DNA of 44,624 bases from Comamonadaceae bacterium (lineage in GTDB: Bacteria; Pseudomonadota; Gammaproteobacteria; Burkholderiales; Burkholderiaceae_C), in NCBI GenBank assembly GCA_947371915.1, contig CANBRM010000013.1, positions 1 through 44,624 of the forward strand, given 5' to 3'. This document shows positions 14,422-16,670 of the stretch, piece by piece. Under the pieces are notes generated by a model. That model was given only the letters and a program-made list of their open reading frames with translations. It did no database searches and had not been told where the DNA came from. A program made the position numbers and the translations under genes. Positions within the stretch are counted from its first letter, which is position 1; each line of letters opens with the position of its first letter.

Positions 14422-15606
14422 TTACTTCAAACCAGCCGCGTCTTTCAGCAACGCCGCCTTGTCCGTGCGTTCCCACGTGAACTCCGGCTCTTCACGGCCG
14501 AAGTGGCCGTACGCTGCGGTCTTGCTGTAAATCGGGCGCAGCAAGTCGAGCATTTGGATGATGCCCTTGGGGCGCAGGTCAAAGTGCTCTGCCACCAAGG
14601 CGGCGATTTTGTCGTCAGCGATCACGCCCGTGCCCTCGGTGTTCACCGTGATGTTCATGGGGCGCGCCACGCCAATCGCGTATGCCACTTGAATTTGGCA
14701 CTTCGTGGCCAAGCCTGCCGCCACGATGTTTTTGGCCACATAGCGTGCTGCGTAGGCGGCTGAGCGGTCCACCTTGGTGGGGTCTTTGCCAGAGAAAGCA
14801 CCGCCGCCGTGGGGGCAAGCGCCACCGTAGGTGTCCACAATGATTTTGCGACCGGTCAAGCCGCAGTCGCCTTGTGGGCCGCCGATGACGAATCGGCCGG
14901 TGGGGTTGATCAAATACTTGGTGTCTTGCAACCATTCTTTGGGCAACACGGGCTTGATGATCTCTTCAATCACTGCCTCGATGAAGCTGTCCTTCATTTG
15001 GGTGGGCGATTGTGATTGGTCAGGGCTGTGTTGGGTTGACAACACCACGGTGTCAATGCTGTGGGGCTTACCGTCTACGTAGCGCATGGTCACTTGGCTC
15101 TTGGCGTCGGGGCGCAAAAAGGGCAAACGGCCGTCTTTGCGCAACTGGGCTTGACGCTCGACCAAACGGTGGGCGTAGTAAATGGGGGCGGGCATCAGCT
15201 CTGGCGTTTCGCTGCAGGCGTAGCCAAACATCAGGCCTTGGTCGCCAGCGCCGATGTTGAGGTAGTCGTCCGATGCGCGGTCCACACCTTGGGCGATGTC
15301 GTTGGACTGTTTGTCATAAGCCACCAAAACCGCACAGCCTTTGTAGTCAATGCCGTAGTCGGTGTTGTCGTAGCCGATGCGCTTGATGGTGTCGCGGGCC
15401 ACTTGGATGTAGTCCACGTTGGCTTGCGTGGTGATCTCGCCTGCCAAGACGACCAAGCCGGTGTTGGTCAGTGTTTCGGCGGCCACGCGTGAGAGCGGGT
15501 CTTGCTCAAAGATTGCGTCGAGGATGGCGTCTGAGATTTGATCCGCGACTTTGTCGGGATGGCCTTCCGAGACGGACTCAGAGGTGAAGAGATAGTCGAG
15601 AGACAT
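14422..15606 (-). CDS. metK: S-adenosylmethionine synthetase
   Basis: Makes SAM from methionine and ATP in the cytoplasm. 394 aa, standard length. Motifs: [18 protein letters not shown] at the N-terminus (ATP/metal site), the conserved [20 protein letters not shown], and [20 protein letters not shown] (the P-loop-like signature). The SD AAGGAG is 8 nt before ATG 15606. The roughly 155-nt leader carries a SAM-II-like structure and an SD-masking stem, so feedback by SAM on translation is likely. It is divergent from the lpxL-type acyltransferase genes. Confidence 0.98.
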
Positions 15607-15613
15607 GAAAAAA

Positions 15614-15666
15614 GCTCCTTGTTTTCAATAGGTTGTTCGGCGTTGCCGACCCTGAAAACTTGGAGC
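15614..15666 (-). promoter_or_regulatory. Stem masking the metK Shine-Dalgarno sequence
   Basis: On the minus strand GCUCC-AA-GUUUUCA (15666-15653) is complementary to UGAAAAC-AA-GGAGC (15627-15614): 12 pairs around a symmetric AA/AA internal loop. The 3' arm contains the metK SD (AAGGAG). A nested hairpin UCGGC-AAC-GCCGA (15649-15637) fills the loop. The 5' arm nucleotides 15664-15668 (GGGCU) can instead pair with AGCCC at 15692-15696, giving a possible on/off switch. The structure was drawn by eye; no folding energy was computed. Confidence 0.7.
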
Positions 15667-15667
15667 C

Positions 15668-15762
15668 CAGCGAACGCTTTAGCAGTTGCGGGGGCTTTGC
15701 CCTCACTCTCACACCATGGTGTGTCGTCGCCCTGCAAGTAGTTCTTTAACTCAGCGACAATC
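15668..15762 (-). ncRNA. Candidate SAM-II-type riboswitch aptamer in the metK leader
   Basis: Read on the minus strand, P1 is UUGUCGC (15760-15754) with GCGACGA (15730-15724). The loop opens UGAGUUAAAG and ends CUUGCAGG, and GCUAAA follows at 15683-15678. This order (P1, UGA-UUAA, UUGCA, P1', GCUAAA) is that of SAM-II RNAs as I remember the crystallised metX example. A pseudoknot P2 is available: GAAC (15744-15741) with GUUC (15675-15672), and GCAG (15735-15732) with CUGC (15685-15682). The P1'-to-GCUAAA linker is long (about 40 nt) and holds two hairpins, CACAC-CAUG-GUGUG and GGGC-AAA-GCCC. The gene controlled, metK, makes the ligand. Confidence 0.6.
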
Positions 15763-15765
15763 TGT

Positions 15766-15793
15766 ATTCTATTTGAACTTCCCTCCCTGCCAA
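15766..15793 (-). promoter_or_regulatory. Candidate sigma70 promoter of metK
   Basis: Minus-strand TTGGCA (15793-15788) and TAGAAT (15771-15766) are separated by 16 bp. Transcription would begin near 15759, right at the first strand of the proposed riboswitch P1, so the aptamer would form the extreme 5' end of the mRNA. The -35 box overlaps the region upstream of the divergent acyltransferase gene. Confidence 0.6.
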
Positions 15794-15803
15794 AAATAAC
15801 CCT

Positions 15804-16670
15804 ATGGCCCCTGTGACACGACTTTTCCATTGGCTTGCTTGCCTTCCTTTGCCGCTGATGCAGCGCGTGGGTGCGGGTTTGGGTTGGGTCGTCTGGTGGA
15901 TGTCGCCGAGTTACCGCCGCCATTTCAAAGCCAATGTGCAGGCTGCGGGTATTGCGTGGCGTGATGCGCGTCCGGCGGTGGCGGCGATTGGCATGATGGT
16001 GGCTGAGTTGCCTTGGGTCTGGATGCGTCCGCACAGTGCCACGTTGAACGACGTTGTGCAATGGGAGGGTGCCGAGCACTTTGAAGCCGCGATGCTCGCC
16101 GGTCGAGGGGCTATTATTTTGTCGCCCCACTTGGGCAGCTGGGAAATCGGTGCGCAAGCGATTGCCGAAAAGTTTGGCCCGCGCTTTGGCCCCTTGGTGG
16201 CCTTGTTTCGTCCGGCTCGCAAAGCGTGGCTGGAGCCCTTGGTGGCGAATGCCCGCACCCGCCCTTATTTAGATTCCGCGCCCACATCGCTCGCTGGTGT
16301 GCGCACTTTGATTCGAACCTTGCGCAAGGGCGGCTACCCCGCCATCTTGCCCGACCAAGTGCCTCCCTTGGGCCAAGGCGTGTGGGCGCCTTTCTTTGGC
16401 AGCGATGTGTACACCATGACGCTGCTGGGCAAATTGGCCCAACAAACCGGTGCGCAAGTGATCTTGACGTGGTGCGAGCGTCTTGCCCCAGGCCAAGGTT
16501 TTTGCATGCACATGCGCCCCTTTGATGCCCCAGAACTGCGCGATGCGTCAGTGTCGCCCGAACTGGCGGCGGCGGCCGTGAATCGGGGCGTCGAGGCGAT
16601 GGTGCGTCACGCGCCAGGCCAGTATTTGTGGGGCTATGCCCGCGACAAACAACCCCGTTCGGAAGGCTGA
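15804..16670 (+). CDS. Lipid A biosynthesis acyltransferase, LpxL/HtrB family (first copy)
   Basis: 288-aa inner-membrane acyltransferase that adds a secondary acyl chain to lipid A precursors. The catalytic H-x4-(D/E) motif is SPHLGSWEIG (about residues 109-118). An N-terminal hydrophobic segment anchors it (FHWLACLPLPLMQRVGAGLG). A substrate-binding region with DQVPPLGQGVWAPFFG is typical of the LPLAT family. A second homologue follows 3 bp later, so they form an operon and probably act one after the other on lipid A. It is divergent from metK. Confidence 0.9.
   Translation: MAPVTRLFHWLACLPLPLMQRVGAGLGWVVWWMSPSYRRHFKANVQAAGIAWRDARPAVAAIGMMVAELPWVWMRPHSATLNDVVQWEGAEHFEAAMLAGRGAIILSPHLGSWEIGAQAIAEKFGPRFGPLVALFRPARKAWLEPLVANARTRPYLDSAPTSLAGVRTLIRTLRKGGYPAILPDQVPPLGQGVWAPFFGSDVYTMTLLGKLAQQTGAQVILTWCERLAPGQGFCMHMRPFDAPELRDASVSPELAAAAVNRGVEAMVRHAPGQYLWGYARDKQPRSEG

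Follow-up and report, generated by a model that had tools for sequence, protein, structure and literature searches.

The leader of metK in the window (the whole stretch of DNA analysed, 44,624 nt from a Comamonadaceae bacterium) is a real, conserved regulatory RNA. On its sequence, it is a divergent SAM-II-type aptamer, a SAM-II-like variant whose ligand is presumably SAM. We estimate the probability at roughly 80% that the leader acts in cis as a SAM sensor with a bistable translational platform, and that SAM represses the gene.

The gene downstream was earlier proposed to make SAM, and its ORF is indeed metK, matching the TIGR01034 equivalog with 588.9 bits (cut-off, 309.4 bits). A divergent acyltransferase gene (15804–16670, plus strand; NF006487 match above its cut-off) lies on the other side. 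The candidate promoter proposed at P1 is confirmed as a promoter-like site: TTGGCA, the 16-nt spacer, and TAGAAT match the consensus at 10 of 12 positions (0.1 expected in shuffles). Transcription would start near 15759, i.e., near P1. The metK leader (minus strand, 15760–15606) begins at about 15760, after the promoter-like site, and comprises, from 5' to 3', the P1 5' strand, GAGUUA, the GAAC loop, ACUUGCAG, the P1 3' strand, two hairpins, CUGCUAAAGCGUUC, the SD (GGAG, 15618–15615), and the ATG. The feature had been taken to end at 15668; the expression platform continues to the start codon at 15606–15604.

Table 1 Features of the metK leader and its locus in the window
Feature	Position	Strand	Basis or remark
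Promoter-like site: TTGGCA 15793–15788, 16-nt spacer, TAGAAT 15771–15766	15766–15793	-	
P1 5' strand UUGUCGCU	15753–15760	-	Read from sequence; P1 covariation in relatives
L1 core GAGUUA	15747–15752	-	Rfam SAM_alpha consensus at this place: GAUUUG
P2a 5' strand GAAC	15741–15744	-	Partner GUUC 15675–15672; GAAC/GUUC versus GAC/GUC covariation
UUGCAG, including P2 5' strand GCAG 15735–15732	15732–15737	-	Covariation in metK leaders
P1 3' strand GGCGACGA	15724–15731	-	Read from sequence; P1 covariation in relatives
Linker hairpin 1, CACAC-CAUG-GUGUG (14-bp palindrome)	15710–15723	-	Predicted fold; hairpin kept in relatives
Linker hairpin 2, GUG-A-GGGC-AAA-GCCC-C-CGC	15688–15706	-	Predicted fold
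P2 3' strand CUGC 15685–15682, overlapping GCUAAA 15683–15678, SAM-II ligand-pocket strand	15678–15685	-	
Switching strand GCGUUC	15672–15677	-	GUUC with loop GAAC (P2a); GCGUU with AACGC (P3)
P3 upper 5' strand GCUG	15668–15671	-	Partner CGGC 15648–15645
Sequesterer 5' side: anti-SD GGGCUCC 15668–15662, GUUUUCA 15659–15653	15653–15668	-	Predicted fold
P3 3' strand CGGCAACGC	15640–15648	-	Complement search, folding
Sequesterer 3' side: UGAAAAC 15627–15621, SD-containing GGAGCUU 15618–15612	15612–15627	-	Predicted fold
metK, methionine adenosyltransferase, 394 aa	14422–15606	-	TIGR01034 equivalog

Every element that the earlier note had described in SAM-II order (P1, the loop, the pseudoknot helices, and GCUAAA) is found in its place. 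P1 pairs 15760–15753 with 15731–15724 and consists of eight base pairs if the closing U-G is counted and of seven otherwise. The aptamer loop, UGAGUUAA, begins at 15753, CUUGCAGG occupies 15738–15731 (minus strand), and P2 is formed by GCAG (15735–15732) and CUGC (15685–15682). The strands of the SAM-II pocket (U11 and U12, UUGC, and GCUAAA) are all found in the window leader. The same strands are also visible by eye in leaders displayed without the aptamer pattern. In the structural numbering of SAM-II, we take G15750 to be position 10, U15749 and U15748 to be U11 and U12, and U15737 and U15736 to be U20 and U21. The third loop of the window carries a 40-nt insert with two hairpins (fold z, -2.9). 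Taken as a whole, the leader has only a moderate folding advantage over shuffled sequences (z, -1.86; 5 of 200 shuffles are as good), so that the case rests on comparison.

We compared 130 metK leaders, including the window's own: those from the best 80 of 586 named-genome relatives, 30 loci from 61 genomes, and 20 more, a few loci being duplicate records. A strict pattern of the whole aptamer, to which GCTAAAGC belongs, matches 106 of them, the window's included. Among the 24 non-matching leaders, seven have GCTAAAGCGTTCGCC but exceed the linker length that the pattern allows, three more are partial or variant (one cut by a contig end and two spelling variants), and one is unreadable, starting at a contig end. 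The remaining 13, which belong without exception to other families within the order, have no aptamer. Besides the window's family, metK leaders of 21 families were read; the aptamer is present in eight and absent from 13, three further families of the 61-genome set being left out of the tally. Named hosts of the aptamer include Undibacterium, Comamonas, Variovorax, Polaromonas, Acidovorax, Hydrogenophaga, Curvibacter, and Limnohabitans. The closest metK among the best 80 of 586 is from a Comamonadaceae MAG (96%), followed by two from Undibacterium (94 and 93%). The invariance of UU, UUGC, and GCUAAA in the pattern-matched sets is by construction, because these strands were part of the patterns. 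When a relaxed pattern leaves GCUAAA open, 98 of 106 matches still read it; with the loop letters left open, 38 of 106 matches are in the wrong register and uninformative. A more distant class member (L187:1501–1558), the leader of a metK that is 64.5% identical, has GAAUUUAA and GCUAAAGCGUUU and is possibly an independent case of SAM-II at metK, judging from its sequence.

The aptamer helices covary. In the 106 leaders, P1 is paired in 103–106 at each of the first five positions and in 100 at the sixth. Its loop end is C-G, U-G, or U-A, and U-A and C-G exchange further out. In P2, the pair next after the pattern-fixed G-C and C-G (pair 24–41) is A-U in 74, G-C in 24, and G-U in 7 of 106 leaders, and the pair after it is G-C in 98 and A-U in 6. 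To judge from the sequences, P2a changes length along with its partner strand. When the downstream strand is GUCG, the loop ends with GACA in 14 of 14 leaders; when it is GUUC, the loop ends with GAAC or GAGC plus one letter in 71 of 90 leaders, and with AAGCA, a poor fit to GUUC, in 14 of 90.

Alignment A1 contains 36 of 54 listed references and alignment A2 contains 43 of 51 listed. In 43 short-linker sequences, 96.6% of the cells of 15 aptamer pairs are paired. Double-changed cells number 63, versus 18.1 in shuffle controls that ignore relatedness, and none of 500 shuffles reaches 63. When slid by one to three columns, the helices give only 0–7 such cells. Two of five measures in the 43 sequences are not above the shuffles: double-change pairs (7 versus 5.2) and further pair types (14 versus 14.4). 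Another 27 elements are non-identical to the first set: 14 metK leaders, with the rest being second copies, elements at other genes, and one mis-hit (L179, GTCTTA) that is kept in the counts. In these, P1 is paired in 23–26 of 27 at positions 1–5, and P2a in 27, 27, 26, and 12 of 27 at its four positions. The covariation supports an H-type pseudoknot made of P1, P2, and P2a. In sum, P1 and both pseudoknot helices covary and GCUAAA is kept in related metK leaders, in accordance with the SAM-II-like class that the earlier note had assigned.

Rfam SAM families give no match in the window at the gathering threshold, and none in the leader at E ≤ 10. Scanned against all of Rfam at E ≤ 10, the leader gives no SAM/SAH (RF01727) match; its only match, bxd_5, was taken as chance. 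Of 14 short-linker relatives, two have an RF00521 match (SAM_alpha; gathering cut-off, 36 bits) that falls precisely on the metK leader, with 21.5 and 21.1 bits; the other 12 give no match at E ≤ 5. One short-linker leader, scanned alone against 4227 Rfam families, matches RF00521 at E = 0.0039, with matching letters across GA-UU, CUUGCA, UUAAACAA, and GCUAAAG. In 61 relatives, searched with strict filters at E ≤ 1, no metK leader is among the RF00521 matches listed. The window's own genome has 13 weak RF00521 matches, none of them at metK; the best (25.1 bits, at a locus read by eye) was taken as chance. With strict filters, SAM-V (RF01826) has no match in the window's genome, the leader included, and none in 36 genomes of the same genus. 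Among the 61 relatives, the sole SAM-V match over the cut-off (L152, G054:C9:38543–38607; 59.3 bits) is in a genome of the same order, on a different contig from metK, and the metK leader of that genome is without the element. RF01726 (SAM-II long loops) has four weak matches in the genome and none at the leader; membership in this family, i.e., the long-loop SAM-II variant that had been considered, was rejected accordingly. Hence, the proposed covariance-model check is negative for the window leader itself (RF00521, RF01826, and RF01726) and positive, below threshold, for RF00521 in two relatives. A distant-mode search of plasmid DNA gave one match, to the SD and start of a Rhodobacter metK, which lies outside the aptamer.

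A covariance model built from short-linker leaders with the window leader left out (R1) matches the window leader at E = 2.1e-7, the only match at E ≤ 0.01 in the genome, over the 5' half only (model positions 2–34 of 57). R1 also matches canonical SAM-II copies that precede metX and metZ-like genes, indicating that the metK element and canonical SAM-II have a common recognisable core. Since both kinds are mixed among the R1 matches, genome tallies of R1 are not counts of the metK element. The element escapes Rfam because its scores fall under the cut-off. Three departures keep us from assigning it to RF00521: a score under the threshold, the missing U at position 10, and, in the window, the lack of a short third loop.

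Position 10 is G in 105 of 106 metK leaders (the pattern allowed G or T only), and GAGTTA is read in 103. With the loop letters left open, the 68 in-register matches read G in 67 cases and T in one. U at position 10 occurs in the metK leaders L127 and L171, both from one other family, and in several tandem second copies; the two leaders indicate that leaders of the same gene tolerate the change. Five same-genus MetX-like leaders (L142, L146, L148, L149, and L155) read GATTTG; the gene of L142 is MetX by NCBIfam and the other four were assigned by eye. Four of these five genomes (G006, G014, G023, and G036) also have a GAGTTA metK leader. According to PMC6061858, a U of SAM-V forms a weak pair with the U to which the adenine of SAM binds. 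By analogy, that U would be the equivalent of SAM-II position 10.

The U10-to-G change might mark a SAM-II-shaped aptamer that has acquired another ligand, e.g., SAH, or has lost its selectivity for SAM. G10 in 105 of 106 metK leaders, next to GAUUUG kept in the five same-genus metX leaders, would fit such a shift, as would the weak pairing of the putative SAM-V equivalent with the adenine-binding U (PMC6061858). However, the gene, metK, yields SAM; U10 is present in two metK leaders from another family; and the UU, UUGC, and GCUAAA stretches are conserved. We therefore consider a changed ligand improbable.

The third loop is the second departure. The distance from the P1 3' strand to GCUAAA is 16–21 nt in 54 of 106 leaders and 31–86 nt in the other 52. 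Short-linker relatives have A-rich third loops such as UUAAACAA and AUAAAU; the window has no short loop. Two hairpins are predicted in 47 of the 52 long-linker leaders and one in five, and the inserts have a mean fold z of -2.7, with 49 of 52 below -1. The linker of about 40 nt with two hairpins described in the earlier note stands, and its 14-bp palindrome turns out to be incidental: relatives keep the hairpin with other loops, not the palindrome. A protein-binding site at the palindrome was rejected on this ground. The P3 hairpin of SAM-V lies in the third loop, and the hairpin insert, placed comparably, is taken to be a structural spacer. Tentatively, the metK elements might form a separately tuned SAM-II subclass, in which G10, opposite the uridine that holds the adenine of SAM, and the loop hairpins set a SAM threshold unlike that of the canonical metX SAM-II with U10 in the same genomes. 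If this is true, a single cell would read two SAM set-points through one fold in two forms, of which one controls transcription and the other translation.

P2a and a predicted anti-sequesterer helix, P3, share the switching strand (Table 1). An AACGC-type site lies between GCGUUC and the SD in all 90 leaders with GCGUUC, versus 26.1 (maximum, 42) in 50 shuffling rounds. Five base pairs of P3 were found by complement search, and their perfect pairing is partly by construction; the next three pairs, outside the search, are standard in 90, 90, and 87 of 90 leaders. No covariation is seen in P3, the pairs of which hardly vary (the sequences are cut at that site), so P3 rests on conservation, not covariation. 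In leaders cut just after the AACGC site, the predicted probability of P3 exceeds 0.5 in 93 of 94.

When GCGUUC is blocked, the SD is predicted to be hidden, with a median unpaired probability of 0.02 and values below 0.3 in 95 of 106 leaders (shuffled mean, 0.31). When P3 is enforced, the median SD exposure is 0.52, above 0.5 in only 52 of 94 leaders and below the blocked state in 4 of 94. These truncated and constrained folds test feasibility only. A gapless helix over the whole SD is available in 91 of 106 leaders versus 70.9 in shuffles, which is only moderately above chance, and is missing from 15; an SD helix of at least seven pairs is available in 55 of 106 versus 20.9. In 76 leaders, the 5' side of the SD helix sits in the P3 loop. 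Another set of 30 leaders consists of 16 without GCGTTC, already in the constrained-fold set, and 14 new ones. Cut before the SD, 24 of them pair the switching strand downstream, any downstream partner being counted, and with the strand blocked 28 hide the SD, both counts being without a shuffle control.

Equilibrium folding failed as a proof of the switch, since little of the SD is exposed whether or not the switching strand is available. The full-length fold masks the SD anyway (unpaired, 0.09 free versus 0.11 with GCGUUC blocked). For the window leader, the predicted energies favour the masked state over the P3 state by about 8 kcal/mol (-24.6 versus -16.4); the median over 94 leaders is 0.8. 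Because the SD is masked either way at equilibrium and the masked state is favoured, a switch would have to be kinetic. The dominance of the sequestering hairpin with or without the switching strand would also be seen in a non-switching leader that needs no metabolite and whose hairpin covers the SD permanently or under the control of temperature or a protein. We regard this as very unlikely, as it leaves unexplained both the covarying pseudoknot with the SAM-II pocket letters and the RF00521 matches.

For the SAM-repressed switch, we infer SAM as the ligand, the direction of the switch, and kinetic control. By comparison with SAM-II and SAM-V, SAM binding would stabilise P2 and P2a in the pseudoknot. 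P2a would then engage GCGUUC, and P3 (GCGUU-AACGC plus GCUG-CGGC) could not form, because its strand would be occupied. With P3 excluded, the anti-SD would pair with the SD region and metK translation would stop. The switch would be co-transcriptional: without SAM, P3 would win the race and form first, before the SD is transcribed, trapping the anti-SD in its loop and leaving the SD more open. In this way, the leader probably allows SAM synthesis to be switched off in cells that have ample SAM.

GUUCGCC can pair with the start region GGCGAAC in predicted structures of several relatives, and P2a would weaken this pairing. In the structures predicted for relatives such as L026, L036, and L055, the GUUCGCC-GGCGAAC helix lies over the start codon, as expected if SAM-bound P2a freed the start codon and activated metK. 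Such an ON switch is hardly credible: the window metK start (ATGTCTCTCGAC) is without that complement, the SD stays masked in folds with the switching strand blocked, and a gene switched on by what it makes would be under positive feedback.

The metK leader shares with SAM-II (RF00521) P1 and a two-part pseudoknot, arranged alike, the UUGC and GCUAAA strands, a methionine/SAM gene context, and, in short-linker relatives, the A-rich third loop. It differs in its sub-cut-off scores, in GAGUUA for GAUUUG, in its metK target, in the re-use of the P2a strand in a bistable SD-masking platform, and in the third-loop hairpins of the window. The earlier note had placed the novelty in host and gene; this is part of it, and the platform, the U10-to-G change, and the loop inserts depart further. 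As described in PMC6061858, SAM-V (RF01826) is similar in its related pseudoknot, in acting on translation, and in having a hairpin, P3, which SAM-II does not possess. In the same paper, the SD lies within P2a in most SAM-V, whereas the metK leader masks the SD by a separate hairpin.

RF01726 is the "SAM-II long loops" of Weinberg 2010 (PMC2864571), which mentions further SAM-II representatives in its supplement; given that supplement, the metK element may already be present in an existing alignment. The metXZ element of Leyn 2014 (PMC4239095) is likewise a pseudoknotted leader of methionine genes in the same bacteria, but it is followed by a terminator, has U10, and precedes other genes. RF00521 matches 14 loci (L140–L151, L154, and L155; e.g., L140:1537–1609 and L142:1498–1574) upstream of metX, metZ, or metH with 28–45 bits, 12 of the 14 being under 36. 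The genes of L142, L140, and L150 were named by NCBIfam and the others by eye, and that of L141 is a small unnamed ORF. As RF00521 matches upstream of metX and metZ, sequence comparison suggests that the metXZ element is SAM-II itself. SAM-II is also placed in beta-proteobacteria by two older papers, PMC2258182 and PMC2704228.

Tandem SAM-II, of which the review PMC9481103 counts 44, in some cases have a terminator first and then a second copy that masks the RBS, so such an arrangement is not new; the window metK leader differs from these in being single. The tandems seen here (L162, L169, L170, L173, L175, L177, L179, L184, and L186) consist of a canonical or near-canonical SAM-II, a terminator-like hairpin, and a metK-type copy, i.e., they have the same terminator-first order with the metK-type copy second. 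The tandem of L179 precedes a metZ-like start, and those of L162, L173, L175, and L177 precede a small ORF and a MATE-family transporter (L162 checked, the others by eye). Translational SAM-II is not new either, in view of the SD-dependent control by SAM-II at Sinorhizobium metA reported in PMC9373788. Further SAM-II-like elements with a third-loop hairpin (L195, L196, L200, L201, and L202) lie upstream of an ORF of about 100–120 residues in genomes of one other family of the class; the L200 protein has no NCBIfam match.

According to the 2014 survey (PMC4239095), beta-proteobacterial metK is without a known regulator and the survey's own search for one failed. We found no report of a SAM-II-like element at Burkholderiales metK in the open-licence PMC literature. 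The metK element would close this regulatory gap for the window's family and for no fewer than eight others in the order. The element also suggests that a bistable translational platform can be driven by a single SAM-II-type fold via its P2a strand, and that this fold tolerates a change at a conserved pocket-side position together with large loop inserts. Genomes with both versions permit a direct test of one aptamer fold tuned to two genes.
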